NCBI GenBank assembly: GCA_903847605.1
Contig: CAINED010000029.1
Span: 1-64,000, forward strand
Source of the DNA: an uncultured Hyphomicrobiales bacterium
GTDB taxonomy: Bacteria; Pseudomonadota; Alphaproteobacteria; Rhizobiales; Beijerinckiaceae
Reading direction: 5' to 3'
Length of the DNA stretch: 64,000 nucleotides
The notes under the pieces: model-generated
What the model was told of the DNA's origin: nothing
The model's database searches: none
Seen by the model: only the letters and a program-made list of their open reading frames with translations
Position numbers and translations under genes: made by a program
Shown: piece by piece, positions 4,950 through 30,225 of the stretch
Layout of the letters: every line of letters begins with the position of its first letter
How positions within the stretch are numbered: the stretch's first letter is position 1

Positions 4950-4964
4950 AACAATGGGGCCGGC

Positions 4965-5966: not shown

Positions 5967-6061
5967 TCTGTTGCGGTCCCGGGCAGGATTTGGTGTAAAG
6001 AGAGAGCCGCGACCCAACGCCTGACAACATTCGGCCTGGCCTTTTCCGGAGCCCTCCCAGC

Positions 6062-13070: not shown

Positions 13071-13095
13071 TCGTCAGCGCCATGCCACCACAGCG

Positions 13096-14157
13096 ATGAC
13101 CGGGCCGCACAAAATCCTGTTCTATTATCGCTTCCTCGGGCTGGGCGGCGTCGAATCGGTTCTGCTCAATCGCATCGAGGCCTTGAAGGTGGCAGGACTG
13201 GACGCGGAATACTGGTACTCGGATACATATTGCGCGGATCCGGCACTGGTGAGCGATGCGCCATACGTCCGCATGGTCGCCAGAGAGCAAGTCGCGCAGG
13301 CAGCGCTCGCTGGCGAATTCGATCGCATTGTCGTTCTCGATAATCCCTTTGTGTTGCGGCAGATATTGAGAACGAAAAGCCACGCCCGGATCTTCGCGGA
13401 AACACATGTTCCACTGCCCTGGAAGATGCGGCAATTTTATCGTGACATGGACAATCCCGGGGTTGCGGCCGTGATCGTGCCGTCGCCCTATAACAAGGAA
13501 CGGCTGATCGAAGAGCTCGGCATCGCCAGCGAGCGGATTACTGTCGTACGAAACATCGTGCCGGTCGACGCTGCGCTTGTTCAGCACACACAGCCGCAGG
13601 CTCCGCAGTTGCTGTGGGTTGGCCGTCTCGAGAATGAAAAAGGCCCCGACCTCTTTATCTCTCTGGCGCGCAAGCTTTCCGAATCCGGGATCGATGCTCG
13701 CTTCATCATGGTTGGAAACGATCCCGATTACGAGGGCCGAGTGGGCGAATTACGGGAGTTTGCGGGGGGCGCCGCGTTGGATATCAGTTTTATTCCGGCG
13801 GTCGCCCGCGCGGACATGCAGAAAATGTACAAGGACGCGGCGGCTTCCGGAGGCGCTTATGTCTGCACCTCCAGATTCGAATCCGCGCCGATGACCATAC
13901 TGGAAGCGATGGCCTGCGGATGTCCGGTCGTGGCCTCGAACGCGGGCGGCATACCTCTCATGATCGAGAACCGTGTCGACGGGGAATTGTACGATACCGA
14001 GACTCTCGACGACGCCGTGGCATGTATCCGGCGCGTCCTCTCTTCTTCCGATCACAGAAGCAATATGACCGCTGCGGCCCGGCAGAGGGTTGGGCGCGAT
14101 CACTCGGCCTCCGCAACAGTCGCCGCATTTCGAAATTTGTTCGGCTGTGAGGCATGA
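13096..14157 (+). CDS. Glycosyltransferase family 4 protein
   Basis: The 353-residue protein has a GT-B fold. The acceptor domain opens with ILFYYRFLGLGGVESVLL, the glycine-rich loop typical of GT4 enzymes. The donor domain contains LLWVGRLENEKGPDLFI and the E-x7-E motif in ESAPMTILEAMACGCPVV, followed by ASNAGGIP. It would act on lipid-linked or nascent glycans at the cytoplasmic face. There is no transmembrane segment. It starts 25 bases after the upstream glycosyltransferase gene, without an obvious ribosome-binding site, suggesting co-transcription. Donor and acceptor are unknown. Confidence 0.87.
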   Translation: MTGPHKILFYYRFLGLGGVESVLLNRIEALKVAGLDAEYWYSDTYCADPALVSDAPYVRMVAREQVAQAALAGEFDRIVVLDNPFVLRQILRTKSHARIFAETHVPLPWKMRQFYRDMDNPGVAAVIVPSPYNKERLIEELGIASERITVVRNIVPVDAALVQHTQPQAPQLLWVGRLENEKGPDLFISLARKLSESGIDARFIMVGNDPDYEGRVGELREFAGGAALDISFIPAVARADMQKMYKDAAASGGAYVCTSRFESAPMTILEAMACGCPVVASNAGGIPLMIENRVDGELYDTETLDDAVACIRRVLSSSDHRSNMTAAARQRVGRDHSASATVAAFRNLFGCEA

Positions 14158-17310: not shown

Positions 17311-18342
17311 ATGACTTCCAGAATCGAAATGGGCCTCGACACGTTCGGCGATGTCACATGGGCCGCAGATGGCGAACTCGCCTCGCAGGCGCAAGTCATC
17401 CGCGATGTCGTCGAGCAGGGCGTTCTCGCCGATCAGGCGGGCATAGACTTCATCGGCCTTGGCGAACATCACCGTGCGGATTTCGCAATTTCATCGCCCG
17501 AGATGGTGCTTGCCGCCATCGCGTCGCGTACCAAAAACATTCGCCTCGGTTCCGCCGTCACGGTCCTGAGTTCGGACGAGCCTGTGCGCGTCTTCCAGCG
17601 CTATTCGACATTGAACGCGGTCTCGAACGGGCGCGCCGAAATCATCCTGGGGCGCGGCTCCTTCATCGAATCCTTTCCGCTCTTCGGTTACGACCTCAAG
17701 GACTATGAAAAGCTGTTCGAGGAAAAGCTCGATCTCTTCGTGGCGCTGGTGTGCGATGAGGCCGTGACCTGGCGCGGCACCGTGCGTGCGCCGCTTTCGA
17801 AGCAGCGCGTGTTTCCCTCGATCGAGGGTGGACCATTGAAAACCTGGGTCGGCGTCGGCGGCAGTCCGGAATCCGTGGTGCGCGCGGTTCACTACGATCT
17901 GCCGTTGATGCTGGCGATCATCGGCGGCGATCCCGCGCGTTTCAAGCCCTTCGCGGATCTCTATCGCCGCGCCTTCAAGGAGACAGGAAAGTCCCAACAA
18001 CCCATCGGCGTTCATTCGCACGGCTATATCGCCGCCACCGATGAACTGGCGCGCGAAGAGTACTGGCCCGACTACAAGGGCATGCGCGACCGCATTGGCG
18101 CCGAGCGCGGTTGGGGGCCGTTCACGCCAGCCGAATTCGAGCGCGAGATCGCTCAGGGCTCGCTCTATGTCGGATCGCCCGAAACAGTCGCCGCCAAGAT
18201 CGTCCGCACGGTCAACACGCTGGGCCTTGACCGCTTCGAGATGAAATACAGCGCCGGCCGCCTGCCGCATGTGAAGATGATGCGCTGCATCGAGCTTTAC
18301 GGCACGAAGGTCGTCCCGCTCGTGCGGGAGATGCTGACCTGA
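17311..18342 (+). CDS. LLM-class (luciferase-like) flavin-dependent oxidoreductase
   Basis: The protein is 343 residues long, the usual size of the bacterial luciferase-like monooxygenase family, with a TIM-barrel fold. Signatures are FIGLGEHH near residue 50, IASRTKNIRLGSAVTVL, and GRGSFIESFPLFGYDL, then GVGGSPESVVRA in the C-terminal half. Such enzymes use reduced FMN (or F420) to oxidise small organic substrates. It stands at the left border of the catabolic island, in front of an FAD hydroxylase, so it may perform an early oxygenation; the substrate is unknown. No flavin reductase gene is adjacent, so a general reductase would have to supply FMNH2. Confidence 0.85.
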   Translation: MTSRIEMGLDTFGDVTWAADGELASQAQVIRDVVEQGVLADQAGIDFIGLGEHHRADFAISSPEMVLAAIASRTKNIRLGSAVTVLSSDEPVRVFQRYSTLNAVSNGRAEIILGRGSFIESFPLFGYDLKDYEKLFEEKLDLFVALVCDEAVTWRGTVRAPLSKQRVFPSIEGGPLKTWVGVGGSPESVVRAVHYDLPLMLAIIGGDPARFKPFADLYRRAFKETGKSQQPIGVHSHGYIAATDELAREEYWPDYKGMRDRIGAERGWGPFTPAEFEREIAQGSLYVGSPETVAAKIVRTVNTLGLDRFEMKYSAGRLPHVKMMRCIELYGTKVVPLVREMLT

Positions 18343-18386
18343 TCCCTCGGGTGCGGCGGGATAGACCATTGCCAGCAGCGCAATTA

Positions 18387-18396
18387 GTTGTCTTAT
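18387..18396 (+). promoter_or_regulatory. Candidate GntR operator copy 1 (GTTGTCTTAT)
   Basis: The ten bases GTTGTCTTAT occur 29 bases before the FAD hydroxylase start and recur exactly just upstream of the GntR gene at 22681. The sequence after it (TTATCAGACAG) gives an imperfect palindrome. Shared placement in front of two transcription units of the same island suggests a binding site for the GntR-type regulator. This is inference. Confidence 0.45.
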
Positions 18397-18424
18397 TTAT
18401 CAGACAGGAATTTTGCGCGGGGCG

Positions 18425-19648
18425 ATGGCGGCGATGACAGCACTTTCGGCTTCCGGCGACTGCGATGTCGCCATTTCGGGCGCGGGGCCGGTCGGCCTAT
18501 GTCTTGCGATGCTGCTGGGCGAGGCGGGCCTTTCCGTCAGGATGTTCGAGACCGATCCTGCGGTGTCCGAGGATTTGCGCGCTTCCACCTTCCATTCGCC
18601 GACGATGGATTTGCTCGAAACGTCCGGCGTCACGGCCGAGCTTCTGGAACGCGGTCTCGTTTGTCCGTCATGGCAAATCAGGCTGCATCCCTCGGGCGAC
18701 CGCGCCGTCTTCGATCTTTCGGTCCTGTCGGGCGACACGAAACATCCCTATCGCCTGCAATGCGAACAGTGGAAGCTGTCGCAGGCCTTGTTGAGGCGCG
18801 TGCAGAAATTAAAGAACGTCGAGATCAATTTCTCGTCCGAAGTGCTTGAAGTCGCCGACAGCGGCGATCACGCCGAGATGACGGTCCGCATCGGCGAGAC
18901 GCGCGAAGTCTTTCGCTCGCGCATTGCCGTCGGCGCCGACGGCGCGCGCAGCATCGTGCGCAAGTCGATGAACCTGCCCTTCGACGGCGAAACCTACCCT
19001 GAAACCACGGTGCTCGTGACGACGCTGTTTCCTTTCGAGGATCATCTCGAAGGCCTTTCCAACGTGACTTACTGCTGGAAGGAGGGCGGCAATTTCAGCC
19101 TGCTGAAAGTGCCGGGCCGCTGGCGCGCTTCGATCTATCCGCGCGAGGATTTACCGATCGAGGATCAACTGACGGAAGACGCCATCGAGGCGAGCCTGCA
19201 GGTGATCGTGCCGCGCAAGGAGCGCTACGAAGTGCTGGACAAGCGGCCCTATCGCGTTCACCAGCGCATCGTGCCGAAATACAATAGCGGCCGGCTTGTG
19301 CTCGCCGGCGATGCGGCGCATCTCAACAGTCCCTCGGGCGGCATGGGTCTCAACGGCGGCATTCACGACGCCTTCGAACTCGCCGCCGCGTTGAAGGATA
19401 TCCTGCAGAAGAATACTTCGCTCGCGCGGCTCGATCTCTACGACCGCCGCCGCCGTCCCGTCGCGCGCGACCAGATCATCGCGCAGGCCGACCGCAATCG
19501 CGCGCGCATGCGCGAGAAGGACCCGGACAAGCGCATCGAAATGCTGCGCGAATTGCAGGCGATCGTGTCGAACAAGGAAAGGCTCTACGCCTATCTCCTG
19601 AAGTCATCGATGATCGAAGGCTTCAGGCAATCGCAGGGGATCACCTGA
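18425..19648 (+). CDS. FAD-dependent aromatic hydroxylase (PHBH/UbiH-like)
   Basis: The family's three flavin fingerprints are present: the N-terminal dinucleotide site ISGAGPVGL, the GADGARS motif after about 165 residues, and LVLAGDAAHLNSPSGGMG near 300, which contacts the FAD ribityl phosphate. Group A hydroxylases of this kind use NAD(P)H and O2 to put a hydroxyl on an activated aromatic or heteroaromatic ring. NicC of nicotinate degradation is one example. The frame is open from TTG 18413; ATG 18425 (MAAMTALS) is a better start. It precedes the maleate-isomerase-like gene by 40 bases, indicating one operon under the candidate GntR site. Confidence 0.87.
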   Translation: MAAMTALSASGDCDVAISGAGPVGLCLAMLLGEAGLSVRMFETDPAVSEDLRASTFHSPTMDLLETSGVTAELLERGLVCPSWQIRLHPSGDRAVFDLSVLSGDTKHPYRLQCEQWKLSQALLRRVQKLKNVEINFSSEVLEVADSGDHAEMTVRIGETREVFRSRIAVGADGARSIVRKSMNLPFDGETYPETTVLVTTLFPFEDHLEGLSNVTYCWKEGGNFSLLKVPGRWRASIYPREDLPIEDQLTEDAIEASLQVIVPRKERYEVLDKRPYRVHQRIVPKYNSGRLVLAGDAAHLNSPSGGMGLNGGIHDAFELAAALKDILQKNTSLARLDLYDRRRRPVARDQIIAQADRNRARMREKDPDKRIEMLRELQAIVSNKERLYAYLLKSSMIEGFRQSQGIT

Positions 19649-19688
19649 GGGATGGCCGGCGCGTAAACGAATTAGCAGGGAGAAGCAG

Positions 19689-20471
19689 ATGTCCGTCGAA
19701 TATGCAGCGCGTGGCCTTATCGGCGTTCTGACGCCGCAGGCGAATACGACGGTCGAGCCGGAATATAACATTCTCACGCCGCCCGGCTATGCGTGGATCA
19801 ATGCACGCATGACGAGCCGTTTCGGCACGATCGAGGAACGTCTCGTCGATTATTTCGGCAATGTTCATTCCTTCCTGCCGCAGTTTGCGAATGCGCCGAT
19901 CCAGTCGATCGCCTTTGCCTGCACGGGCACGTCTTACCTCGCCGGGGTGAAGGACGAGGACCGCGTTCTCAAGGAGATCGAGGAGAAGACCGGCCTGCCG
20001 GCCATGAGCGCAGCGACGTCCGTCTGCAAGGCGCTCAACGTGCTCGGCGCGAAAAAGATCGGGCTCGTTTCGCCCTATGCGGGCAGTCTCGACAAGGCCT
20101 GTCCGCCCTATTGGGAGGAGCGGGGATTCAAGGTTGCGGCCAAGCGCAACGCGGAATGGACGGGCGAGAATTTTCACCCCATCTATTCGCTGAATTCCGA
20201 TGCGGCGCAGGCCTGTCTCGACAAGATGCACGACGACGATCTCGACGCCATCGTGATGCTGGGCACGGGCATGCCGACGCTATCGCCGATTGCGCGCACG
20301 CCCTATGTCGGCCGCGCGCCGGTCATGTCCTGCATGCTCGCTATCGTCTGGGCGAGCGTCGCGGCGGCGGGAGGCTACGAGCCGGACAAGCGCGATCTGC
20401 TCGACTGGATCGAAGGCAAGCATTGGAAAGAACGTATGCACGCCTGGGAGAAGGCGTCAGTGAAGCGGTGA
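19689..20471 (+). CDS. Maleate isomerase / arylmalonate decarboxylase-like protein with one catalytic Cys
   Basis: The 260-residue protein belongs to the Asp/Glu racemase superfamily branch containing maleate cis-trans isomerase. Conserved features are LTPQANTTVEPEY (N19), AFACTGTSYLAG (first catalytic Cys, C78) and VSPYAGSLDKA (Y130). The second cysteine, which in maleate isomerases sits in an SCTNLRT-like motif, is a glycine here (G192 in MLGTGMPTL). Arylmalonate decarboxylase has the mirror arrangement, Gly at the first and Cys at the second position. The enzyme is thus likely to be a decarboxylase, isomerase or racemase with altered stereochemistry, not a standard maleate isomerase. It follows the FAD hydroxylase on the same strand. 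Confidence 0.75.
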   Translation: MSVEYAARGLIGVLTPQANTTVEPEYNILTPPGYAWINARMTSRFGTIEERLVDYFGNVHSFLPQFANAPIQSIAFACTGTSYLAGVKDEDRVLKEIEEKTGLPAMSAATSVCKALNVLGAKKIGLVSPYAGSLDKACPPYWEERGFKVAAKRNAEWTGENFHPIYSLNSDAAQACLDKMHDDDLDAIVMLGTGMPTLSPIARTPYVGRAPVMSCMLAIVWASVAAAGGYEPDKRDLLDWIEGKHWKERMHAWEKASVKR

Positions 20472-20498
20472 GGATTGGCAAGTGCGAGCCAATTCAGC

Positions 20499-20602
20499 CC
20501 TCATGCCGAGTGGCGAGCGAAGCTCGCGTATCGAAGCACGAGGGCGGCGCGCGCAAACCTCGTCCTTCGATACGCCGCCTTCGGCGGCTACTCGGGATGA
20601 GG
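20499..20602. repeat. Long inverted repeat, two 45-base arms (REP-like), between convergent genes
   Basis: Arm 1 (20499-20543) and arm 2 (20558-20602) are near-perfect inverted copies separated by 14 bases. Each arm contains its own short palindrome (GCGAGCGAAGCTCGC in arm 1, GCCGCCTTCGGCGGC in arm 2). It lies exactly between the convergent ends of the isomerase-like gene and leuD, where it could end transcription from both sides. Elements of this look occur as interspersed palindromic repeats in alphaproteobacteria. Confidence 0.8.
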
Positions 20603-20609
20603 TTTGTGT

Positions 20610-21224
20610 TTACCGCTTCGGCAGCGCCCACGTATTTTCGCTTTCGTACTTTGTCGCAAAAGCAGCAATTTCGCCTGCGTGCGCGCGCGTCATGTCGACA
20701 TCGTCCCAGCCATTGATCAATCGCGCTTTCCATTGCATGGGCACATCAAAACTCACGCTGAGATTTCCGGCGACGATGGTTTGCTGGGCGAGGTCGACGC
20801 GCACGGGCAGGCCGGCGAGAACATGAGCGCTTTGCAGGAGCGCATCGGCATCCGCTTCCGACACCGCCGCCGGCAATACGCCATTGCGGATGGAATTGGA
20901 GGCGAAGATGTCGCCGAAAGACGGCGCGATCACGCAAGTGACGCCATAGTCGGCCAGCGCATAGACGGCGGGCTCGCGCGAGGAGCCGCAGCCGAAATTG
21001 CGTTTTGCGATCACGATACGCGCATTGCTGTAGCGCGGATCGTTGAGTGCGAAGTCGCGCGCCTTGCCGTCCTCATCGAAGCGGAAATCGTAGAGCAGAT
21101 ATTGCCCGTAGCCGCCCTCGCTGCGCGGCCGCTTCATGAAGCGCGCCGATATGATCTGGTCCGTATCTATGTTGGCGAGCGGCAGTGGGCAGGCCGCTCC
21201 TTCGAGTGTCCTGAAAGGTTTCAT
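20610..21224 (-). CDS. leuD: 3-isopropylmalate dehydratase-type hydro-lyase, small subunit
   Basis: The 204-residue protein shows the LeuD swivelling domain: NIDTDQIISARFMKR near the start, FGCGSSREPAVYAL in the middle (the serine loop at the active site) and VIAPSFGDIFASNSIRNG. It combines with the large subunit encoded immediately upstream to hydrate or isomerise a hydroxy-dicarboxylic acid. Its ATG overlaps the stop of the large-subunit gene (ATGA), indicating coupled translation. The context is catabolic (a lyase, an isomerase-like enzyme, a GntR regulator), so it may process an alkyl-maleate/malate and not leucine precursors. The sequence alone cannot separate the two. Homologues include LeuD and dimethylmaleate hydratase small subunits. 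Confidence 0.85.
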   Translation of the reverse strand: MKPFRTLEGAACPLPLANIDTDQIISARFMKRPRSEGGYGQYLLYDFRFDEDGKARDFALNDPRYSNARIVIAKRNFGCGSSREPAVYALADYGVTCVIAPSFGDIFASNSIRNGVLPAAVSEADADALLQSAHVLAGLPVRVDLAQQTIVAGNLSVSFDVPMQWKARLINGWDDVDMTRAHAGEIAAFATKYESENTWALPKR

Positions 21225-22636
21225 GGCTTGCGTCCCGCGAGCAGGGGGCGAACGTCCGTGAGGCGCCCTGTGAGCGCAGCGGCGGCAGCCATGGCGGGCG
21301 AAACGAGATGCGTGCGCGCGCCCGGTCCCTGTCGTCCCTTGAAATTGCGGTTCGATGTCGAAGCGCAGCGCTGGCCGGGCTCGACGATGTCGCCGTTCAT
21401 GCCGACGCACATCGAGCAGCCCGAGGCTTCCCACGAGAGACCGGCTTCCACGAAAACTTTGTCCAGTCCTTCCTGTTCCGCCTGTTGCTTGATGAGCATG
21501 GAGCCGGGCGAAACGAGGCCGGGGACGACAGCCCGCCGACCGGCGAGCACGGCTGCGGCGGCGCGCAGGTCCTCGATGCGGCTGTTGGTGCAGGAGCCGA
21601 TGAAGACGCGGTCGATGGAGATATCGCTCATGGCCATTTTGGGCCGCAGGCCCATATATTCGAGCGCAGCGCGGACGCCCTGCGCTTTCGTTTCATCTTC
21701 GATGTCTGCAGGATCGGGCAAGCGCGCGCCGATGGGCAGCGCCTGTTCGGGGCTCGTGCCCCATGTCGCGGTGGGAGTCATCGCCGCGGCGTCGAAGGCC
21801 ATTTCCGCGTTGAAGACGGCGTCTTCGTCGGATGGCAGCTTTCGCCATTCTTCGACAGCGCGCTCGAACAACTCGCCGTGCGGCGCATGAGGACGCCCTT
21901 CGATATAAGCAAACGTCTTTTCATCGGGTGCGACGATGCCGAGGCGCGATCCCGCCTCGATGGAGAGATTGCACAGCGTCATGCGCGCCTCGATGGAGAG
22001 CGCACGCACGGCATCCCCGGCATATTCGATGGCGTGTCCGGTCGCGCCGCCGCTGCCAAGGCCCGCGATGACATTCAGCGCGAGATCTTTCGCACTCACG
22101 CCTTCGGGCAGTTGGCCGCTGACACTGACACGCATCTTCTTCGGCCGCTTCTGCCAGATCGTCTGCGTCATCAGCACATGCGCCACCTCGGAAGCGCCGA
22201 TGCCGAAAGCGTAAGCGCCGAGCGCGCCATGGGTCGAGGTATGGCTGTCGCCGCAGACGATGAGGAGGCCGGGGAGCGTCAGCCCCTGTTCGGGCATGAC
22301 GACATGCACGATGCCTTGCTGCGCATCGTCGAGACCGAACAGGCTGACCCGATGGCGCGCCGTATTCTGCTCGAGAAGATCGATCATGTTGCGGATTTCG
22401 GCGGAAGCGCCGCGGCTCTCGCGCTGGCGCGTCGGCACGTAGTGATCGGCGATGCCGAATGTCAGATCGGGCCGCGCAACCTCGGCCTTGCGTGCGGCGA
22501 CCTGGCCGAATCCGTGGTTCGACCCCTCATGCACGTAGTGCCGGTCGATCCAGAGGAGGGTGTCTCCGTCCTCGCGTTCGAGAATGGCGTGGGCGTTCCA
22601 GATTTTCTCGATGATGGTGAGCGGCCGCGCAGCCAA
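21221..22636 (-). CDS. leuC: 3-isopropylmalate dehydratase-type hydro-lyase, large [4Fe-4S] subunit
   Basis: About 471 residues of the aconitase superfamily, standard length for LeuC. Visible motifs are IEKIWNAHAIL, VCGDSHTSTHGALGAYAFGI, FIGSCTNSRIEDLR and CSMCVGMNGD; the cysteines in the last two bind the [4Fe-4S] cluster that activates substrate. The frame opens at GTG 22648, but a GGAGGA ribosome-binding site overlapping it favours TTG at 22636. It is the first gene of a leuC-leuD pair diverging from the GntR gene, with the candidate operator in the 50-base gap. Either leucine biosynthesis or hydration of a substituted maleate in the neighbouring pathway is possible; the context favours the latter. 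Confidence 0.87.
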   Translation of the reverse strand: MAARPLTIIEKIWNAHAILEREDGDTLLWIDRHYVHEGSNHGFGQVAARKAEVARPDLTFGIADHYVPTRQRESRGASAEIRNMIDLLEQNTARHRVSLFGLDDAQQGIVHVVMPEQGLTLPGLLIVCGDSHTSTHGALGAYAFGIGASEVAHVLMTQTIWQKRPKKMRVSVSGQLPEGVSAKDLALNVIAGLGSGGATGHAIEYAGDAVRALSIEARMTLCNLSIEAGSRLGIVAPDEKTFAYIEGRPHAPHGELFERAVEEWRKLPSDEDAVFNAEMAFDAAAMTPTATWGTSPEQALPIGARLPDPADIEDETKAQGVRAALEYMGLRPKMAMSDISIDRVFIGSCTNSRIEDLRAAAAVLAGRRAVVPGLVSPGSMLIKQQAEQEGLDKVFVEAGLSWEASGCSMCVGMNGDIVEPGQRCASTSNRNFKGRQGPGARTHLVSPAMAAAAALTGRLTDVRPLLAGRKP

Positions 22637-22680
22637 GCCTTCCTCCACAAGCCGCCTATAGGCTTACTTGACGATGTGTC

Positions 22681-22690
22681 GTTGTCTTAT
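22681..22690 (+). promoter_or_regulatory. Candidate GntR operator copy 2 (GTTGTCTTAT) in the leuC/GntR divergent promoter
   Basis: The ten-base word also found upstream of the FAD hydroxylase sits here between the leuC-type gene and the divergent regulator gene, directly before the regulator's ATG. The following bases (AAGCTATAC) continue an AT-rich half-palindrome. A repressor bound here would control both the hydro-lyase operon and its own operon. Confidence 0.5.
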
Positions 22691-22701
22691 AAGCTATACA
22701 T

Positions 22702-23511
22702 ATGTCCGTTCATTCGCCAGACAAAGAAAGCGCCAGTTTTTCGATGGCCGGACCCGATCTTTCCAAGACGCGCATGGTCTATCTGGGCCTGCGAGACCGC
22801 ATCAATAGCGGCGCTTTCGGCAAGGCGGGCGGGCTTCCCGGGGAGCAGGCGCTTGCCGCCGAATACGGCGTTTCGCGCGTTACGTTGCGGCGCGCGCTGG
22901 CGGCGCTTGCTGCCGACGGATTGATCGACCGGCGTCGCGGCGCGGGCACGTTCCTCAACGAAAGTGGCGCGCCGAAGCCGGTCGTATCCGATCTCACCGA
23001 TGTTCTCGCCCATCTGGTGGAGATGGGGCGCAGCACGAAAGTGTGTTTGCTCGATTGCGTCATGGTCGATCCGTCGCCGATGATCGCGAGCGCACTGAAG
23101 CTCACGCCGGGCGTGCGCACGCAGCTTTCGCGCCGCATGCGTCTCATCGACGGAGAGCCGTTCTCGTTCCTCGTCGCCCACGTGCCCGAACGGCTCGCCA
23201 ATACCTATTCGGTCGACGAACTTTCGCGCGAGCCATTGCTCTCCTTGCTCGAGCGCGCATCGGCGACGGTCGACAGCGCCGTGCAGGAAATCGGCGCGGA
23301 ACTCGCCGCGCCCGATGTTGCGGCGGCGCTTGGTGTCGAAGCTGGCGCGCCACTCCTCACGATGACGCGAGTGACCTTCGATGTGAACGGCGAGGGCATC
23401 GAGCATCTGCGCGCGCTTTACCGCCCCGATCGTTATTCGATCCGGATGGATTTGCGGCGTATTCACAAGGGCGGCAAGCGTCGCTGGATGCCGGAGGCGA
23501 AATGGCAGTGA
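22702..23511 (+). CDS. GntR-family transcriptional regulator (HutC/UbiC-type ligand domain)
   Basis: The N-terminal winged helix is clear: VYLGLRDRINSGAFG, then LPGEQALAAEYGVSRVTLRR, the recognition helix, and ADGLIDRRRGAGTF for the wing. The C-terminal 160 residues match the UTRA/HutC ligand-binding domain (RRMRLIDGEPFSFLVAHVP, LLTMTRVTFDVNGEGIEHL), which binds a pathway metabolite. The start at 22702 has no ribosome-binding site and abuts the candidate operator; ATG 22744 (MAGPDLSKTRM) is a possible true start. Its stop overlaps the lyase gene, placing regulator, lyase and hydrolase on one transcript. It likely represses the island until a dicarboxylic acid inducer appears. Confidence 0.87.
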   Translation: MSVHSPDKESASFSMAGPDLSKTRMVYLGLRDRINSGAFGKAGGLPGEQALAAEYGVSRVTLRRALAALAADGLIDRRRGAGTFLNESGAPKPVVSDLTDVLAHLVEMGRSTKVCLLDCVMVDPSPMIASALKLTPGVRTQLSRRMRLIDGEPFSFLVAHVPERLANTYSVDELSREPLLSLLERASATVDSAVQEIGAELAAPDVAAALGVEAGAPLLTMTRVTFDVNGEGIEHLRALYRPDRYSIRMDLRRIHKGGKRRWMPEAKWQ

Positions 23512-24377
23512 CATCGCTGTGCGAGAGAATAGCGAAGCCGTCCATTGTCGTCGCGCCCGGCGTCTATGATGCACTCACCGCTTCCATTGCTGAAAGCTGC
23601 GGTTTCGAGGCGCTCTATCTGTCTGGCGCGGGCATTGCCTATACGAAGCTCGGACGGCCGGATATCGGCCTCGTTTCGATGAGCGAAGTGGCGGATACGC
23701 TGACGCATATCTGCGAGCGCGTGAGGACGCCTGTCATCGTCGATGCCGATACGGGCTATGGCAATGCGCTGAACGTGCAACGCACCGTCAAACTGTTCGA
23801 GAAGGCCGGAGCTTCGGCCATCCAGCTCGAGGACCAGACCTTTCCCAAGCGGTGCGGGCATCTCAACGGCAAAATGCTCGTCGACGCCAGGGAAATGGCG
23901 GGCAAGATTCGTGCGGCGGTCGATGCGCGCGCCAGCGATAACACGCTGATCATCGCACGCACGGATGCGGTTGCTGTCGACGGGTTCGAAGCGGCCGTCG
24001 AGCGCGCCAACATGTTTCTCGAAGCGGGCGCTGATATTCTCTTCATCGAAGCGCCGCGCTCGCAATCGCAACTGGGCGAGATCACCTCAAAGTTTGCAGG
24101 TCGCGCCCCGCTTATGGCCAATATGGTGGAAGGCGGGGCGACGCCTGTGCTGCCAGCGCAGCAGTTGGAAAGGCTCGGCTTCCGTCTCGTTATCTTTCCG
24201 GGCGGCATCGTTCGCGCGCTTGCGCGTACAGCCACGGATTTTTATACGGCGCTGAAGCGCGATGGGACCAGCGACGCCATGCGCAACAGCATGTATGATT
24301 TCGACGGGCTCAACGAACTCCTGGGAACTGCGGGCATCCTTGCGCATGGCAAGTCCTACGAGGACGGCGCGCCGTGA
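23502..24377 (+). CDS. Isocitrate lyase/PEP mutase superfamily lyase (2,3-dimethylmalate lyase-like)
   Basis: The 291-residue protein is a TIM-barrel of the isocitrate lyase/PEP mutase superfamily. Catalytic landmarks are YLSGAGIAYTKLG, the metal-binding DADTGYG (D81, D83), the QLEDQ segment and KRCGH at 116-120, whose Cys is the acid in C-C lyases (methylisocitrate, dimethylmalate lyases) and is normally absent from phosphonate mutases. It should split a substituted malate into pyruvate or another keto acid plus a small acid. The gene overlaps the GntR stop by ten bases and the following gene by four. Pairing with a LeuCD-type hydratase is the arrangement expected for alkylmaleate to alkylmalate to cleavage products. 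Confidence 0.83.
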   Translation: MAVTSLCERIAKPSIVVAPGVYDALTASIAESCGFEALYLSGAGIAYTKLGRPDIGLVSMSEVADTLTHICERVRTPVIVDADTGYGNALNVQRTVKLFEKAGASAIQLEDQTFPKRCGHLNGKMLVDAREMAGKIRAAVDARASDNTLIIARTDAVAVDGFEAAVERANMFLEAGADILFIEAPRSQSQLGEITSKFAGRAPLMANMVEGGATPVLPAQQLERLGFRLVIFPGGIVRALARTATDFYTALKRDGTSDAMRNSMYDFDGLNELLGTAGILAHGKSYEDGAP

Positions 24378-24988
24378 CGTCGCAGGCTCCTTTCGATGCG
24401 GCGCGCACGGCGCTTGTGATCGTCGACCTGCAGAATGATTTTCTGCATCCTGACGGCGCCTATGCGCGCGGCGGATTGAAGAACGACGACATTGCAGCCT
24501 TGCCCGCGAGATTGAAACCGTTGGCTGAAGCCCTGCGCCAGCGCGGCGGCTGGATTGTTTCGACCCATTTTACGCTCGTGCCCGGGCGTGGCGGGGAGCC
24601 GATCATCTCGCCGCACTTGCTGCAATTGCGGCCCTTTCTGCGCAAAGGCGACTTCGCGCCTGATACGTGGGGCCATGCCCTTGTCGACGAACTTGCGCCT
24701 GCCGATCTCAGCGTCGAGAAGGTCGCCTATTCCGCCTTCTACATGACGCGTCTCGAATGGCTATTGAGAAAATGCAGAATCGAGAGGCTGATCGTAGGTG
24801 GCATTGTCACCAATGGCGGTGTCGCATCGACAGTGCGCGATGCGCATGTGCGCGATATCGACGTGACGGTTCTAGAAGACGGGTGTGCGACGTTTTCGCG
24901 CGAGATGCATCGCGTCTCGATCGAGGCGCTGCGGCCGGTCGCCCGCATTGCTTCGGTGGAAGAGATGCTGCGCGAAGTCGCGCCGTGA
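24374..24988 (+). CDS. Isochorismatase-like hydrolase lacking the catalytic cysteine
   Basis: This 204-residue alpha/beta protein belongs to the isochorismatase-like hydrolase family. The catalytic Asp is D18 (VIVDLQNDF) and the Lys is K116 (VEKVAYSAF). The usual nucleophilic Cys of amidases in the family (TN-x-CVxST) is replaced by glycine at residue 149 in VTNGGVAST. True isochorismatases such as EntB and PhzD also have Gly there and hydrolyse vinyl ethers without a covalent intermediate. So this enzyme is unlikely to be a NicF-type amidase and may cleave an enol ether or another non-amide bond. It starts with a GTG overlapping the lyase stop (GTGA). Confidence 0.8.
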   Translation: MTSQAPFDAARTALVIVDLQNDFLHPDGAYARGGLKNDDIAALPARLKPLAEALRQRGGWIVSTHFTLVPGRGGEPIISPHLLQLRPFLRKGDFAPDTWGHALVDELAPADLSVEKVAYSAFYMTRLEWLLRKCRIERLIVGGIVTNGGVASTVRDAHVRDIDVTVLEDGCATFSREMHRVSIEALRPVARIASVEEMLREVAP

Positions 24989-25017
24989 CGCGTCCTGACG
25001 CTAAGATTGAATCATCA

Positions 25018-26031
25018 TTACTGCCAGGTCGCGAAAGCCATGCCGCTGCCGGTGCCGGCTTCAGAGCGATAGCAGGGCACATAGTCGAGCAGGTCCATTT
25101 CCAGATTTGTCTCGGAAATGATGCCCGCCAGCACGATCCAGTTCTTGATTTCCGACGTGCCGGAACGGAAGTGAATATCGGGCTCGTTGCAGAGCGTTTT
25201 CCAGTCGCGCGCCTTCATCGCGTCGAGCAGACGGCGGTCCATCGCCTCGTCGATGACGAAATGCGTCACGCCGCCCGAACCCGCAACAGCGACGCGTTCC
25301 TTGCCAGGCCATGACTTGATCGCGCGGGCGATGGCGCGGCCGAGATCGAAACAGCGCTGCGGCGTCGGCTGGTTCGGCGGATAATAAGTGTTGACCGCTG
25401 CCGGGATGAGCGGAATGGGTTTCGAGTTCAGCACGCGGCGATAGATGAAGCCGTGCGAGTGGCCGAGCTGGCGCATGACGCCATTGTCGTTCGGCTGTTC
25501 GCCGAGCGCGGTGATATCGAAATTGTCGTTGACGCAGCCCTTGATGATATGCGCGGCGAGATCTTGCGGGCAGGGATAAATCTCGTCCGTCGGCGGATGA
25601 TAGATCTGCATGGCGTAGCCATTGCCCTGCGAAATCTTGTCTTGCTTTTCTTCGTCGGTCAGCGTGCGGTTGAACACTTCCTTGCCGTGGAAGATGGAGA
25701 AGGCCGGCTGGATGTCGTTCTTGAACCATTCGTGGTGATCGTCTCCAACGATCAGCAGCGCATCGGGATTGCAGGCGATCACGCGGCGGCCGACTTCGTC
25801 GAGTTCCTTCTGGCAGCGCGCGTGACGTTCGCGGCGCACCTCGATGGTGTTCTGCTTCTCGTAACCGTCGTTCTTGCGCAGTTCGTAAAGCTGTTCGAAA
25901 TTATAGGTCCCTGCGCCGAGGACGAGTTCGGGATTGCGGCGGTCGACATTGGCGCGCAGATCCCATTGTTCCGGCGGCGTCGCCAACAGCGGTCCATGCG
26001 ACGTGCCAAATCCCATGACGATCTCGGCCAT
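25018..26031 (-). CDS. Class III (LigB-type) extradiol dioxygenase-like protein
   Basis: The 337-residue protein matches the catalytic subunit family of protocatechuate 4,5-dioxygenase and gallate dioxygenase. The N-terminal MGFGTSHGPLL supplies a probable iron ligand (H12). LIVGDDHHEWF (H99/H100) and LGHSHGFIYRR give further conserved histidines, and VAGSGGVTHFVID is the usual C-terminal block. These Fe(II) enzymes open rings between or beside two hydroxyls. The start ATG at 26031 begins the conserved MAEIVMGFG sequence; a slightly upstream frame extension is not needed. It is the last gene of the minus-strand operon, about 150 bases after the alpha/beta hydrolase, with a small palindrome in the gap. 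Confidence 0.85.
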   Translation of the reverse strand: MAEIVMGFGTSHGPLLATPPEQWDLRANVDRRNPELVLGAGTYNFEQLYELRKNDGYEKQNTIEVRRERHARCQKELDEVGRRVIACNPDALLIVGDDHHEWFKNDIQPAFSIFHGKEVFNRTLTDEEKQDKISQGNGYAMQIYHPPTDEIYPCPQDLAAHIIKGCVNDNFDITALGEQPNDNGVMRQLGHSHGFIYRRVLNSKPIPLIPAAVNTYYPPNQPTPQRCFDLGRAIARAIKSWPGKERVAVAGSGGVTHFVIDEAMDRRLLDAMKARDWKTLCNEPDIHFRSGTSEIKNWIVLAGIISETNLEMDLLDYVPCYRSEAGTGSGMAFATWQ

Positions 26032-26134
26032 TCGGGCTCTCCCCAAGCTATTTTTCAATTACATCGTGTCCGCCAGCGCGGAAGTGGCGGCACAATGATA
26101 TGGATTTTTGTGCAAGGCAAGACGGAGCTTCGAT

Positions 26135-26151
26135 ATTGGAATCAATCCAAT
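26135..26151. promoter_or_regulatory. Palindrome upstream of the LigB-type dioxygenase gene
   Basis: ATTGGA and TCCAAT, six-base arms separated by five bases, lie about 105 bases upstream of the dioxygenase start on the minus strand. The gap of 147 bases between this gene and the alpha/beta hydrolase is the longest in the operon, so a separate promoter or operator is possible. No repeat of the site was noticed elsewhere in the window. Confidence 0.3.
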
Positions 26152-26178
26152 TCCAGCATTGCCGCCATCGCCGGAAGG

Positions 26179-27432
26179 TCAGATCGACAGTGTGGGATAG
26201 CGCTCGCGCAGCCAGCCACCGATACATTTACCGACATCGTCTCTAACGGGTTTTTCGCCCGCGGTCACAGCGAGGCCGTGATGGTTGCCCCGGAAAGCGG
26301 CAACCTCTTTGTCCGATGCGGAAATCAGCGCCATGGTGCGTTCGATATCGGAAGGAAAGACAGCCGCGTCGCCGGTATAATTGATGACAAGCGCGGGCTG
26401 TTCTATGGCGGCGGCCGTGAGTTCCAGCGCCGCGCGCGAAGAAATGCCGGACCATGTCGAGAGCCAGCTTTCCGGCGTGCAGAGCCGCGCAAAACCGACC
26501 GAACCATAGTTTGAAGCATAGGGATCGTTGCCCCAGAGCGAACCGTATTTGCGATCCGATGGTTCGATGGACAAATCCCAGCAGCGCAAATCCGCATCGG
26601 TGCGCCAGATCTCCATGATCTGCTGAAATGAACCGCGAACGCGATCCTGCTGGTTGCCGCTGTCCGCGCCTCGCTTGCGCGCCGCCATGCGCTCGGCGAT
26701 CAGGTCCTTGGCAATTCTGTCGAGGCGTTCGACGCGCGCGCGCTGTCCCTCGCGGAAACGGGCGATGAAGTCCACGGAATATTTCGAGGGCTGCGGCGGT
26801 TCGTTGAATCCGTTGGCGGGATTCATGAAGTCGAGCGCGGGATCGCTCTTCAGCGGATCGCCTTCATCGGCTACAGCGGGATCAATACAGTTTTGCAGCA
26901 GTTTGCCCTGGCCGGGGTGAGGGGAAACCAGAATAATGCCGTCGGCTGCGGGCATGTCGGCCTTGGCAAGGGCGGTCGGCCGTCCGCCCGGGGTGCGCGC
27001 GAGACGTTTGTCTGGCGCGAGCAAGGATTGCTGATTGTAGAAGCAATAGAGGCCTGCGCCGCCGGAATTGCCGAGCAGTACAATTTTTTCAAATCCTGCT
27101 TCGCGCAGAAACACCATGGCGGCGGCGACATCGAGAATGACGGATTCGTGTTCGAGGCGCAGATCGTTGCCGACGCTGCGCGAGGCTTGCGTCCATGCCG
27201 CGCATCCCGCCGCGAGAATATGCGGAATGAGATAATGCGTCGCGAGGAATTCGCGCGGGTGCATGATGCAGACGACGGTCTTCTCGCCGCCACGCGCGAA
27301 CAGGAATCCGTTGGTCGCGGCGTTGTCGACCGTGCGCAGCGGCTTGACGATGGTCTTGCAATCGTCGGGCAGCGCCTCGGATGTCCAGGCCGCATTGCGG
27401 AAACCGGCTGTCGGAGCGGCTTTTTCTGTCAT
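26179..27432 (-). CDS. Alpha/beta hydrolase
   Basis: The 417-residue protein has an alpha/beta-hydrolase core with the nucleophile elbow GNSGGAG (G-x-S-x-G) in IVLLGNSGGAGLYCFYNQ and a C-terminal HHGLAV that would supply the histidine. A large insertion (about residues 150-280) probably forms a lid. There is no signal peptide, so it acts in the cytoplasm. The ATG at 27432 starts MTEKAAP. It lies 17 bases after the FAD hydroxylase stop in the minus-strand operon, so it likely hydrolyses a product of the ring-opening step or an ester or amide form of the substrate. Assigning a precise reaction is not possible. Confidence 0.78.
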   Translation of the reverse strand: MTEKAAPTAGFRNAAWTSEALPDDCKTIVKPLRTVDNAATNGFLFARGGEKTVVCIMHPREFLATHYLIPHILAAGCAAWTQASRSVGNDLRLEHESVILDVAAAMVFLREAGFEKIVLLGNSGGAGLYCFYNQQSLLAPDKRLARTPGGRPTALAKADMPAADGIILVSPHPGQGKLLQNCIDPAVADEGDPLKSDPALDFMNPANGFNEPPQPSKYSVDFIARFREGQRARVERLDRIAKDLIAERMAARKRGADSGNQQDRVRGSFQQIMEIWRTDADLRCWDLSIEPSDRKYGSLWGNDPYASNYGSVGFARLCTPESWLSTWSGISSRAALELTAAAIEQPALVINYTGDAAVFPSDIERTMALISASDKEVAAFRGNHHGLAVTAGEKPVRDDVGKCIGGWLRERYPTLSI

Positions 27433-27449
27433 GGCTGGACCTGTAAAAT

Positions 27450-28577
27450 TCAGTCTGCGTGAGCGCGATATTGCGCCATGAATTGCGGACACTCGCGCTC
27501 GAGACGTTCGGGCGTCATGATGCCCGTGCGCATCATGTAATCCCATGCGAAATCGAGCGGATGCATCTGCATTTTCGATCTCATGTCTTCATACCAGGCG
27601 ATGCTGCGTTCTGCCGCGCGATTGAGCTTGTCCCGGACGGGTTCGCGTTCGCGCTGGTAGCGCGCGAAGGCCGCTGAGATGTCGGTCCCTTCGGCTTCCA
27701 AAGCGCGCCACAGGGCAATGGAGTCCTCGATGGCGAGGCGCGTACCCGAACCGATGGACGGATGGGCCGTGCGCAAGGCGTCGCCGATCAGCACGATATT
27801 CTCATGATGCCACCTGCTGTTCTTGATGATGCGATAGTGACGCCAAAGCGAGCGATTGTCGACGAGCGGCAGTCCGCCGAGCGGTTCGGCGAAAATCACT
27901 TCCGACGACTTGCGCCGCTCGTCATCGTTCATGGCGCCGAAGCCCGAGGAGCGCCATGTCGCAGCATCCATCTCCGCCACGAAAGTGCTCATGTCAGGCG
28001 TATAACGATAGTGATGGCCGCAAAAAGCGCCGCCATTATTTTCGATGAACGTCAGCGTATGCGCGGGGTAGGGGCGTTTCACGCCATACCATGCGAAGTA
28101 GTTTTTAAGGTCGACAATCTCGGTTCCAAACGCTTGCGGAAAGGCATCGCGTACGATCGAGTTCGCGCCATCTGCGCCGACGAAGACATCGCATTCGCGC
28201 GCCAATGATGGATCGCCGACACGCTGGCGATAGTCGATCTTCACGCCGATTGACGCGCAGAGCTTCTGTAATTGCTCCAGCAGAACGAGGCGGCTGATGG
28301 CGGAATAGGAACTGCCGTCGATGACGATGCGCTGGCCGTTCAGCACAATATGTTGGTCCGACCACGTCTGCATATGCTTGAGAAGATGTTCGACGATGGC
28401 GGGATCCGCGTCGGACAGAAAGCTCAGCGCGCGGCCCGACAATACGACGCCGAAGCCGAAGGTGTCGTCGGGGGCGTTCTGCTCGATAACGGTGATGTCG
28501 CGGGACGGCTGCGACTTCTTCATCAGATAAGCGAAGTAAAGTCCTGCGGGGCCTGCGCCCGATATGACGATGCGCAT
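27450..28577 (-). CDS. FAD-dependent aromatic hydroxylase, salicylyl-CoA 5-hydroxylase N-domain type
   Basis: The protein (375 residues) starts with the FAD fingerprint ISGAGPAGLYFAYLMKK and TVIEQNAPDDTFGFGVVLS, which is very like the N-terminal half of bifunctional salicylyl-CoA 5-hydroxylases. VGADGANSIVRDA and IVLIGDALRTAHPSIGSG supply the other flavin motifs. Here the domain stands alone, without the OYE-like C-terminal domain of those fusions. It would hydroxylate an aromatic acid or its CoA ester with NAD(P)H and O2. Its stop lies 17 bases before the hydrolase ATG, and its ATG 15 bases after the TetR gene, all on one minus-strand transcript. Confidence 0.87.
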   Translation of the reverse strand: MRIVISGAGPAGLYFAYLMKKSQPSRDITVIEQNAPDDTFGFGVVLSGRALSFLSDADPAIVEHLLKHMQTWSDQHIVLNGQRIVIDGSSYSAISRLVLLEQLQKLCASIGVKIDYRQRVGDPSLARECDVFVGADGANSIVRDAFPQAFGTEIVDLKNYFAWYGVKRPYPAHTLTFIENNGGAFCGHHYRYTPDMSTFVAEMDAATWRSSGFGAMNDDERRKSSEVIFAEPLGGLPLVDNRSLWRHYRIIKNSRWHHENIVLIGDALRTAHPSIGSGTRLAIEDSIALWRALEAEGTDISAAFARYQREREPVRDKLNRAAERSIAWYEDMRSKMQMHPLDFAWDYMMRTGIMTPERLERECPQFMAQYRAHAD

Positions 28578-28592
28578 GAGTTTCTCCCGAAG

Positions 28593-29321
28593 TCAGGCGC
28601 GCTGGCCGCGCGGCTTGCTACTGGTTTTGCCGGAAATGGCCTGTTCGAGATGGGCGATGTCGTCGCGAACGATCGCAAGCCACGCCTGCGGATCGATTGC
28701 TTCGCCTGCAACGCCGCGCGCCGGACGTTCGACCATGGCGACACATAATTCCGCGATTTTGTCCGCCGCCTGTTCCTCGCCGATGCGTCCTTCGGGGCGA
28801 AACCATTCGATGGTCCAGTTGCACATGCCGAAGATGCAGAGCGCCGTGAAGGCCGGATCGATCGCGCGGAAGCAACCTGTTTCGACGCCGTTGCGGAGAA
28901 TGCCGGCGACGCGGTCGAGCAGGTCGCGCTTGCCCGTGCGCTGGAGATCGCGGATATGCGCGGGCAGATTGCGTTCCTCGCGCAGCAGCACGGCGAAAAG
29001 TTCGGGGCGGTGCAGGATGGCGAGCGCATGGGCGCGCACGACATCCTTCAGCACGTTGCGCGGATCGCTGCCTGCGGATGCCGATGCGATACGTTCGGTC
29101 TCGCGCGCCGAATGCAGCGTCACTTCCTCGACAAGCGCTGCGAGAATCTGATGCTTGTTCTCGAAGTGATGATAGAGCGCGGGGCGGCTGAGGCCCACCG
29201 CGGTCGCAATGTCCTGCATGCTCGTGTCGGCAAAGCCGCGTTCGCGAAAAAGCTTCGCAGCGCCGGCGACAATGGGTTCCCGCACGCCGATGCGGACCTG
29301 GGTGCGGCCTTGTTTCGACAT
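28593..29321 (-). CDS. TetR-family transcriptional regulator
   Basis: The first 60 residues form a typical TetR DNA-binding domain: IVAGAAKLFRERGFADTSM, DIATAVGLSRPALYHHFENK and HQILAALVEE. The remaining 180 residues are helical, including the effector-binding and dimerisation region. It lies inside the operon it probably controls, between the 90-residue protein and the FAD hydroxylase. The only long leader in the operon is upstream of the VOC gene, where a repeated palindrome at 30265-30297 is a good operator candidate. The ligand is probably an aromatic acid or its CoA ester. Confidence 0.9.
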   Translation of the reverse strand: MSKQGRTQVRIGVREPIVAGAAKLFRERGFADTSMQDIATAVGLSRPALYHHFENKHQILAALVEEVTLHSARETERIASASAGSDPRNVLKDVVRAHALAILHRPELFAVLLREERNLPAHIRDLQRTGKRDLLDRVAGILRNGVETGCFRAIDPAFTALCIFGMCNWTIEWFRPEGRIGEEQAADKIAELCVAMVERPARGVAGEAIDPQAWLAIVRDDIAHLEQAISGKTSSKPRGQRA

Positions 29322-29332
29322 ATCGTTCCCCG

Positions 29333-29605
29333 TCAGGCGTGCGGAAGGATCGGCTCGTTTGTGGCGACGAGGGTCAGTCGCAGCGAATCGAAACGCGCAA
29401 TCTTGCCGTCGAGACCTGCGGTGAGGCAGCCATACCAGACGGCTTCCGTCAGACCGGTATCTGCGCGCTCGATATCGAGACGATCCTCAAAGGCGATGAA
29501 CCTGTAGCAACCGATCTTCTTTTCTTCGCGCGCTTTGCCGGTGCGCAATGCGGCGGCCGCGAGCGGCGCGAATTCCGGCACGTCGAGGAGATAGAAGCCG
29601 CTCAT
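29333..29605 (-). CDS. Small conserved-looking protein of unknown function (90 residues)
   Basis: A 90-residue frame starts with ATG overlapping the stop of the VOC gene (ATGA) and ends 12 bases before the TetR gene, so it is translationally embedded in the operon and likely real. The sequence has no transmembrane segment, no cysteine motif beyond isolated residues, and begins MSGFYLLDVPEFAPL. It could be a partner subunit of the VOC enzyme. I do not recognise the family. Confidence 0.6.
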   Translation of the reverse strand: MSGFYLLDVPEFAPLAAAALRTGKAREEKKIGCYRFIAFEDRLDIERADTGLTEAVWYGCLTAGLDGKIARFDSLRLTLVATNEPILPHA

Positions 29606-30225
29606 GATGCTTCACTCTCGGCCAGCGCATCGCGATATTTTTCGACATAGCGCGCCTTGGTGCGCCAGAGTTGTTCGATATCGGTCCAGTGGCCGGTGGC
29701 GTCGAGTTCGAGCGCCGCGTCGATAGTAAGTTCGGCATCCGTCGCATCGGGCCGTTCGACATCGCGCAGGCGGCGCGAGATCTCGATGGGATAAAAGTTC
29801 GGATCGCGGAAGTAGATCGATTCGAGAATCTCGTGCCGCACCGACTGGCTCACGGTCACGCCCTGCATTTCCAGGCGCTTCTGCCATGCCAGTAGTTCTT
29901 CTTCCGTATCGACGCTCCAGGCGGTGTGGTTCGCCATCGCCATGTAACCGCGGGGCACCACGAGTTCGGGCGGCTGCTTCGTGCCGACGTAATAGAAGAA
30001 GGCGATCAGCGCGCCTTTGCCGGCGTCAAAAAAGAAGTGGATGAAGTCGGCATGCTGCTCCTTCTCGCGGCCCCAGCCTTTGGCGGTGATCGCGTGGACC
30101 AGCGGCAGGCCGAGAATGTCGCGATAGAAGTGCACGGTTTCGCGCAGCTTCCACGTGGGCCGCGCGGTGTGATCGACGCCGTGCAGCACGGGCGCCGGAA
30201 GCGTAGCGGCAGGACTCGCGGGCAT
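29602..30225 (-). CDS. VOC-superfamily metalloenzyme, type I extradiol dioxygenase-like
   Basis: The 207-residue protein has the vicinal-oxygen-chelate fold. A metal triad of the type I extradiol kind is visible: His19 (HGVDHTARP), His100 (AMANHTAWS) and Glu148 (DPNFYPIEIS). LRETVHFYRDILGLPLV is the classic VOC helix-strand. The last 50 residues form a helical tail. It could be a ring-cleaving dioxygenase, but isomerases and lyases share this triad. It is the first gene of the minus-strand operon; its stop overlaps the following small gene. The upstream region holds the likely TetR-controlled promoter. Confidence 0.8.
   Translation of the reverse strand: MPASPAATLPAPVLHGVDHTARPTWKLRETVHFYRDILGLPLVHAITAKGWGREKEQHADFIHFFFDAGKGALIAFFYYVGTKQPPELVVPRGYMAMANHTAWSVDTEEELLAWQKRLEMQGVTVSQSVRHEILESIYFRDPNFYPIEISRRLRDVERPDATDAELTIDAALELDATGHWTDIEQLWRTKARYVEKYRDALAESEAS

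Follow-up and report, generated by a model that had tools for sequence, protein, structure and literature searches.

The stretch of DNA analysed here (the window) comprises bases 1-64000 of contig C29, from the 5.34-Mb genome (92 contigs) of an uncultured Hyphomicrobiales bacterium. Positions 17311-30225 hold an island of 14 genes, and judging by the sequences of their products we put the chance that it serves as a single catabolic locus for an aromatic or N-heteroaromatic compound at about 0.45. The enzyme families suggest an aerobic pathway for a ring compound, with the hydration of an alkyl-maleate and cleavage by a lyase as its last steps. A hydratase resembling LeuC and LeuD (LeuCD) and a lyase of the isocitrate lyase (ICL) family belong to one recurrent unit, and the left part of the island is a conserved locus, beyond what chance would produce, because its gene order recurs in seven of the nine loci that we mapped in congeners.

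The first-pass annotation of this DNA had listed 11 enzyme genes of named families, two regulators and one small unknown protein in the island, an inventory that the analysis bore out. Along the window the genes are as follows.

17311..18342, + strand: LLM, a flavin mononucleotide-dependent luciferase-like monooxygenase of the Atu2307/SP_0267 family (TIGR03858, 514 bits, cut-off 462)
18413..19648, + strand: FAD1, a flavin monooxygenase nearest HspB/PnpA (FAD_binding_3, E 4.5e-57)
19689..20471, + strand: MalIso, arylmalonate decarboxylase (AMDase)/maleate isomerase-like, with Cys78 kept and Thr193 in place of the second Cys (PF17645, E 1.5e-13)
20610..21224, - strand: LeuD-like hydratase small subunit (TIGR00171, 174 bits, cut-off 116)
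21221..22648, - strand: LeuC-like hydratase large subunit (TIGR00170, 621 bits, cut-off 560)
22702..23511, + strand: GntR-UTRA regulator (PF07702, PF00392)
23502..24377, + strand: lyase of the ICL/PEP-mutase superfamily with a KRCGH motif (PF13714, E 7.2e-48)
24374..24988, + strand: ISC, isochorismatase-like, with Gly at the position of the nucleophilic Cys (TNGGVAST; PF00857, E 1.5e-39)
25018..26031, - strand: LigB-type (class III) extradiol dioxygenase with a DDH motif (PF02900, E 1.3e-22), its start set at an inner ATG
26179..27432, - strand: ABH, a large alpha/beta hydrolase with a GNSGG nucleophile elbow (alignment of 27 sequences, profile search of the PDB)
27450..28577, - strand: FAD2, a flavin monooxygenase like VioD and the N-terminal half of salicylyl-CoA 5-hydroxylase (NF006101, PDB 8gqr)
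28593..29321, - strand: TetR regulator (PF17932, PF00440)
29333..29605, - strand: sm90, the probable 90-residue small partner of VOC (C-terminal part of Burkholderiales VOC fusions; alignment)
29602..30225, - strand: VOC metalloenzyme carrying the residues typical of type I extradiol dioxygenases (alignment of 16, PDB profile matches)

These genes form four runs: LLM-FAD1-MalIso (+), LeuC-LeuD (-), GntR-ICL-ISC (+) and VOC-sm90-TetR-FAD2-ABH-LigB (-). Gene ends overlap in the third, where the lyase start, an ATG at 23502 preceded by GGAGG, overlaps the GntR stop. We refer to FAD1, MalIso, LeuCD, GntR, the lyase and ISC as the left part and to VOC with sm90, TetR, FAD2, ABH and LigB as the right part. 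The earlier description of the island as two-armed simplifies the four runs.

Recurrence of the two parts in other genomes

Nine congener loci of FAD1 were mapped by tblastn (genomes G649, G651, G660, G656, G640, G642, G650, G644 and G658); the FAD1 contigs of four further congeners (G657, G652, G637 and G647, the last being L184) lie outside this mapping. FAD1, MalIso, LeuD, LeuC and ISC stand in the order of the window in the first seven, and the lyase accompanies FAD1 in six of the nine loci (G660, G656, G640, G642, G650 and G658). The G644 contig begins about 1.3 kb from FAD1 and shows FAD1 and LLM only, the LLM homologue being 66% identical, and G658 has FAD1, GntR, MalIso and the lyase, with no LeuCD or ISC within the 20 kb examined. 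In G642, HyuA and HyuB genes lie between ISC and the lyase (L202, 1717-7047), a placement that links the locus of the window with the plasmid operons discussed below. G660 has an ABC-transporter ATPase and permease between MalIso and FAD1 and an NMT1/THI5-type binding protein beyond FAD1; two open reading frames (ORFs) of similar size occupy the same gap in G656, G642 and G650. Among the 27 FAD1 homologues of at least 280 bits in the loci surveyed, 12 have a racemase-family gene (found with MalIso or Rac2 as query) no more than 1.5 kb away, so that the pairing is common, not general.

The genome of the window itself carries a second set (L030, G000:C21:156000-175999, 5323-13369), comprising an AMDase-family gene, FAD1, ICL, LeuC, LeuD and an isochorismatase-family gene, alongside genes for a TctC-type binding protein and a polysaccharide-deacetylase-like protein (Pfam E 0.0002, marginally under the cut-off). 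Its FAD1 and lyase are each 42-43% identical to those of the island, and its isochorismatase-family protein keeps the Cys.

The right part, LigB excepted, also recurs on its own; it was surveyed in 13 loci with an ABH of at least 45% identity, two of which (L013 and L121) end at a contig edge. VOC, FAD2 and sm90 are each present in 11 of them, a thioesterase match in 8 and a CoA-ligase match of at least 300 bits in 10; three of the ligase/thioesterase matches are close to the query by origin, L066 being its source and L123 and L124 apparently belonging to the same genus. G640 shows sm90-FAD2-ABH-LigB followed by an MFS-like gene and another LLM (the last two named from their translations), and G647 shows VOC-sm90-FAD2-ABH beside a WD40 gene, like the window. 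That WD40 gene (L200, 3270-4670) adjoins VOC, and a WD40-repeat protein adjoins the island at window positions 30646-31935. In an order-level sample, 3 of 248 other genomes have a LigB relative at E 1e-30.

In five alphaproteobacterial loci the VOC ORF has 184-195 residues, versus 287-293 in Burkholderiales. The longer Burkholderiales ORF contains a match to sm90, in frame and in its C-terminal part, in three of four loci, so that sm90 probably forms a subunit of the VOC enzyme. Searches of Pfam, NCBIfam and PHROGs returned nothing for sm90, and its predicted structure (mean pLDDT 42.5) was too poor for a fold search.

The island is flanked on the left by glycosyltransferase genes and on the right by TusA, the WD40 protein, MoeA and formate-dehydrogenase-type genes. 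Promoter- and terminator-like sites are no more frequent than in shuffled sequence, and a search around the gap between GntR and LeuC gave no inverted repeat. The GC content is 0.47-0.53 in window positions 1-6000 versus 0.58-0.68 elsewhere in the window, possibly a sign of acquired DNA there.

One pathway or two

The two parts, whose failure to co-occur had been named in advance as fatal to a joint reading, lie together in one locus in G649 and G651. The order there, FAD1, MalIso, LeuD, LeuC, ISC, LigB, ABH, TetR, VOC/sm90, is that of the window, with LigB and VOC/sm90 inverted. Homologues of the lyase (61-62% identical) are found elsewhere in both genomes, and the best FAD2 homologues reach 41-42%. 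The G649 copy of the lyase (G649:C1:4126670-4127521) has one in-frame TGA and may be a broken copy or reflect a sequencing error. Looser neighbourhoods occur as well: Tistrella plasmid pTM1 has both the right part (about 427-434 kb) and a GntR/lyase set (about 445-458 kb), and G456 and G622 have pairs of more distant VOC+ABH and ICL+LeuC genes separated by about 5.5 kb.

Within the genus we searched 36 congener genomes, taking E below 1e-120 as the limit for an ABH orthologue and at least 62% identity for a full-length FAD1 orthologue. ABH is present in six (G640, G647, G649, G651, G637 and, partial at a contig end, G642) and full-length FAD1 in 11. Five of the six ABH carriers have full-length FAD1 (hypergeometric p 0.006), and when two more genomes with partial FAD1 matches are counted all six do (p 0.0009); relatedness among the genomes makes these p values no more than a guide. 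At the level of the class we used 384 genomes besides that of the window, with limits of E 1e-60 for ISC, 1e-85 for FAD1 and 1e-30 for all ABH matches, the eight best genomes being taken as strong ABH. ISC co-occurs with FAD1 in 4 genomes versus 0.9 expected (p 0.009), with strong ABH in 4 versus 0.5 (p 0.0008, three of the four being of one genus) and with all ABH in 7 versus 2.1 (p 0.002).

The chief alternative has two independent, neighbouring pathways, with a gentisate-like ring cleavage of an aryl acid encoded by the right part, another compound handled by the left part, and the two co-selected. We give this a substantial minority chance, and it stays in play because FAD1 and ABH co-occur across the class no more often than expected by chance. 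A number of findings speak against a single locus, several of them directly for two routes. FAD1 is found with strong ABH in 1 genome of the 384 (0.3 expected, p 0.26) and with all ABH in 3 (1.2 expected, p 0.1), and therefore the link between FAD1 and ABH rests on the genus and not on the class. Both parts were seen together in three loci only, the window, G649 and G651, and the latter two are close relatives whose LigBs are 96% identical; their locus is without GntR, the lyase and FAD2, and their LigB is only 35-36% identical to that of the window, yet shares the DDH motif. G660, G656 and G650 have the left part alone, with no ABH match at E 1e-30. Conversely, in the stretches examined from Variovorax, Tistrella and Cupriavidus the right part comes with its own CoA ligase, thioesterase and Asp/Glu-racemase-family gene, and neither FAD1 nor LeuCD is present. 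The two parts also have different regulators. The LeuCD/lyase units that bear HyuAB have no annotated ring dioxygenase in the stretches examined, so their substrate may be an imide or hydantoin-like ring opened by hydrolysis. Finally, the second His of LigB is not special to these islands, since the LigBs of L014 and L015 also have DDHHE, and no further gene of the island lies on the L015 contig. Against two separate routes stand the joint locus of G649 and G651 with its matching gene order, the fact that most ABH carriers of the genus have FAD1, and the position of LLM, which is linked to FAD1 in G644 and, as a 70% identical homologue, to ABH in G523.

A different reading of the left part comes from plasmids of other Alphaproteobacteria. 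GntR, the lyase (61-66% identical), ISC (58-73%) and LeuC (62-68%) occur together on plasmids of Roseomonas, Azospirillum, Neorhizobium and Sulfitobacter, where the ISC homologues have Gly at the Cys position and the sets adjoin genes for hydantoinase/oxoprolinase (HyuA and HyuB). Transporters of the ABC type for branched-chain amino acids accompany the sets in the first three genera, and MmgE/PrpD genes those in Roseomonas and Neorhizobium. In Tistrella the lyase set of pTM1 has no annotated HyuAB, and pTM2 bears a HyuB-ISC-LeuCD set. The recurrent plasmid operon (L141, L142, L143, L145 and L146) combines hydantoinase genes, a Cys-less isochorismatase-like protein and LeuCD with the ICL-family lyase, except that L146 has acyl-CoA dehydrogenase and CoA-transferase genes in place of the lyase. 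No description of a HyuAB-isochorismatase-like-ICL-LeuCD operon was found in the open-access literature searched.

From these operons the left part could be read as a modified imide- or hydantoin-type pathway, in which the ATP-dependent HyuAB opens the ring in relatives, LeuCD and the lyase then work on the alkyl-dicarboxylate so formed, and the window uses FAD1 instead of HyuAB. The presence of HyuA/HyuB beside ISC and/or the lyase in the four genera, the HyuB annotated near ISC on pTM2 and the HyuA and HyuB between ISC and the lyase in G642 agree with this. However, the island of the window has no HyuAB, the other congener loci with both ISC and the lyase have them adjacent with no room for HyuAB, the lyase stretch of pTM1 is without annotated HyuAB, and ISC lacks the amidase Cys. 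We consider this variant improbable.

Active sites and family placement

The amidases known in the isochorismatase fold use a nucleophilic Cys, and maleamate amidase needs it. In ISC this position is Gly in the window, in all seven congener loci and in all five other close homologues. A further 26 loci from the class search (one of which repeats the pTM2 stretch already counted) have Gly in 25 cases, Ala in one and Cys in none, so that a catalytic Cys is found in 0 of 37 further loci overall; more distant members of the fold in the loci examined keep it. Isochorismatases such as EntB and PhzD are also without this Cys, and because of this ISC may be able to hydrolyse its substrate without a covalent Cys intermediate. 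Maleate isomerases of the NicE type depend on two catalytic Cys. At the second position MalIso has Thr, both in the window and in all 15 orthologues of at least 32% identity, a count that leaves out three rows of 25-27% identity, two of which keep both Cys; the first, kept in the window as Cys78, is Thr in four of the 15.

Elsewhere the expected residues are in place. In VOC, H19, H63, H100, H131, Y138 and E148 are invariant in 16 of 16 sequences, and we take them to be the metal triad of His, His and Glu and the catalytic His and Tyr of a type I extradiol dioxygenase; the VOC of the window has F where the signature of that class has G or P. LigB has the SH, DDH and DE positions in an alignment of 11 homologues, presumably the His, His and Glu iron ligands of a class III extradiol dioxygenase. 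Seven of the 11 have Gln for the second His, which is His in the window, G649, G651 and G640 (L013). Four further LigB-like paralogues in the genome of the window (C72, C21, C48 and C76; L018-L021) all have Gln there. The GxSxG serine of ABH, S123, is invariant in 27 of 27. The claim of altered active sites in the first-pass annotation thus holds for ISC and MalIso, but not for VOC, LigB, ABH and the lyase, which keep the catalytic or metal-type residues expected of them.

The placement of the single enzymes gives a mixed picture. The nearest solved structures to FAD1 are HspB (PDB 7da9, 183 bits) and PnpA (6ain, 180 bits), the next scoring 88, and the top PDB match of MalIso is a maleate isomerase (4fq5, 45 bits). 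Enzymes of the HspB/PnpA group hydroxylate in the para position with loss of the ring substituent; FAD1 is placed near them by sequence similarity. FAD2 scores 154 bits against VioD (8gqr) and 334 bits against NF006101, the model for salicylyl-CoA 5-hydroxylase, over residues 1-371; with a cut-off of 1078 this covers the N-terminal half only, and an identity as full-length salicylyl-CoA 5-hydroxylase was rejected. No Pfam or NCBIfam model matched ABH within the limits used (DUF3530 at E 0.097, below its cut-off), and a profile of its 27 homologues matches alpha/beta hydrolases in the PDB (best E 1.3e-7). The VOC profile finds a structure labelled Glyoxalase first (9u42, E 5e-45), then FosB-type transferases, then dioxygenases from 8.6e-10 and weaker, among them catechol and biphenyldiol dioxygenases. 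This ranking does not settle the activity of VOC, for which type I extradiol dioxygenase is a candidate role.

The lyase has the PEP-mutase fold family match and, as KRCGH, the (K/R)(K/R)CGH motif of the superfamily. It scores 295 bits against the PrpB model (cut-off 354), and its PDB scores of 203 bits for methylisocitrate lyase and 191 bits for dimethylmalate lyase give no choice between the two. LeuD, at 65 bits against the LeuD/DmdB model TIGR02087 (cut-off 109), is by model scores of the bacterial LeuD type and not of the DmdB type. Of the earlier suggestion of a dimethylmaleate logic, the pairing of LeuCD with an ICL-family lyase in one recurrent unit is supported.

The same annotation had likened the island to nicotinate breakdown, and the aerobic nicotinate/2,5-dihydroxypyridine pathway (NicCXDFE, or its equivalent in nicotine degradation by the variant pyridine/pyrrolidine route) must be considered. 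The resemblance of FAD1 to HspB favours it, the HspB pathway making 2,5-dihydroxypyridine according to PMC5343071. Against it, ISC lacks the nucleophilic Cys and MalIso one or both of the Cys that are required there, and no island gene has a NicX-type match in Pfam or NCBIfam, libraries not checked for a NicX model, the rest of the genome not being searched. The likeness is not supported, and we regard this pathway as very improbable. That housekeeping enzymes of leucine synthesis and the methylcitrate cycle were assembled by chance is harder still to credit: LeuC and LeuD pass the cut-offs of the LeuCD equivalog-domain models, but the gene order recurs and a better-scoring leuC lies elsewhere in the genome (C66, 776 bits), separated in a tree that places the LeuC of the window with seven congener LeuCs (support 100/97) inside 13 rows of the module (99/96) and leaves that leuC and the C21 copy of the genome outside. 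That LeuC is not the best-scoring leuC of the genome counts in favour of the first-pass interpretation. The records examined label such genes leuC/leuD, 'cysteine hydrolase', 'oxaloacetate decarboxylase' or 'aspartate/glutamate racemase'. The cysteine hydrolase label is probably wrong for ISC, and the leucine-synthesis label is doubtful for LeuCD.

Proposed route and comparison with known systems

If the island is one locus, FAD2 and FAD1, perhaps with LLM, would hydroxylate ring carbons, and the ring would be opened by VOC with sm90 (type I extradiol) and/or by LigB (class III extradiol). ABH would hydrolyse the ring-opened product to an alkyl-substituted C4 dicarboxylate or its precursor, LeuCD would turn the cis-alkylbutenedioate into an alkylmalate by hydration, and this would be split by the ICL-family lyase into a 2-oxoacid and a carboxylic acid; we infer the cleavage of an alkylmalate as the end step, as the first-pass annotation had done. 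MalIso and ISC would carry out non-canonical steps, because both are without cysteines on which the known isomerases and amidases of their families depend, and GntR and TetR would regulate. It is a tentative and rather unlikely further step that this represents an undescribed aerobic route from a ring compound to an alkyl-maleate, with a catabolic LeuCD, an ICL-family lyase, two Cys-altered enzyme subfamilies doing new chemistry and a new two-subunit extradiol-type dioxygenase, VOC with sm90. No account of the gene set or of its two modules was found in the open-access literature searched (titles and starts of abstracts).

The analysis delimits a catabolic locus that is conserved and open to experiment. 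It also yields two modules that recur, namely ISC/ICL/LeuCD, in most cases with HyuAB, and VOC+sm90/FAD2/ABH. Because catalytic cysteines are lost repeatedly, unusual chemistry is specifically predicted. Riboflavin/lumichrome breakdown, a possible source of dimethylmaleate, was considered and dropped, as the enzymes named in PMC12746152 (P450, Rieske dioxygenase and xanthine oxidase) form a different set.

Among known systems, the plasmid operons with HyuAB share homologues of GntR, the lyase, ISC with Gly and LeuC with the window, whereas the window is without their HyuAB, transporter and extra flavin adenine dinucleotide oxidoreductase genes. Salicylyl-CoA/gentisate-type operons are approached through FAD2, which resembles salicylyl-CoA 5-hydroxylase and which relatives pair with a CoA ligase and often with a thioesterase and a racemase-family gene; the island differs in having VOC with sm90 as candidate ring cleaver and no CoA ligase or thioesterase. 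In nicotinate fermentation by Eubacterium barkeri, dimethylmaleate hydratase DmdAB acts with dimethylmalate lyase, and the island likewise couples a LeuCD-like hydratase with an ICL-family lyase, but with a LeuD of the bacterial type. The variant pyridine/pyrrolidine pathway of nicotine and the nicotinate pathway use enzymes of the HspB/NicC, NicX, NicD, NicF and NicE families. Like them, the island brings together in one cluster a flavin hydroxylase of the HspB/PnpA group, an alpha/beta hydrolase and proteins of the isochorismatase and maleate isomerase folds; unlike them, it has extradiol-type dioxygenases, an ISC without Cys, a MalIso without the second Cys, and the addition of LeuCD and the lyase.

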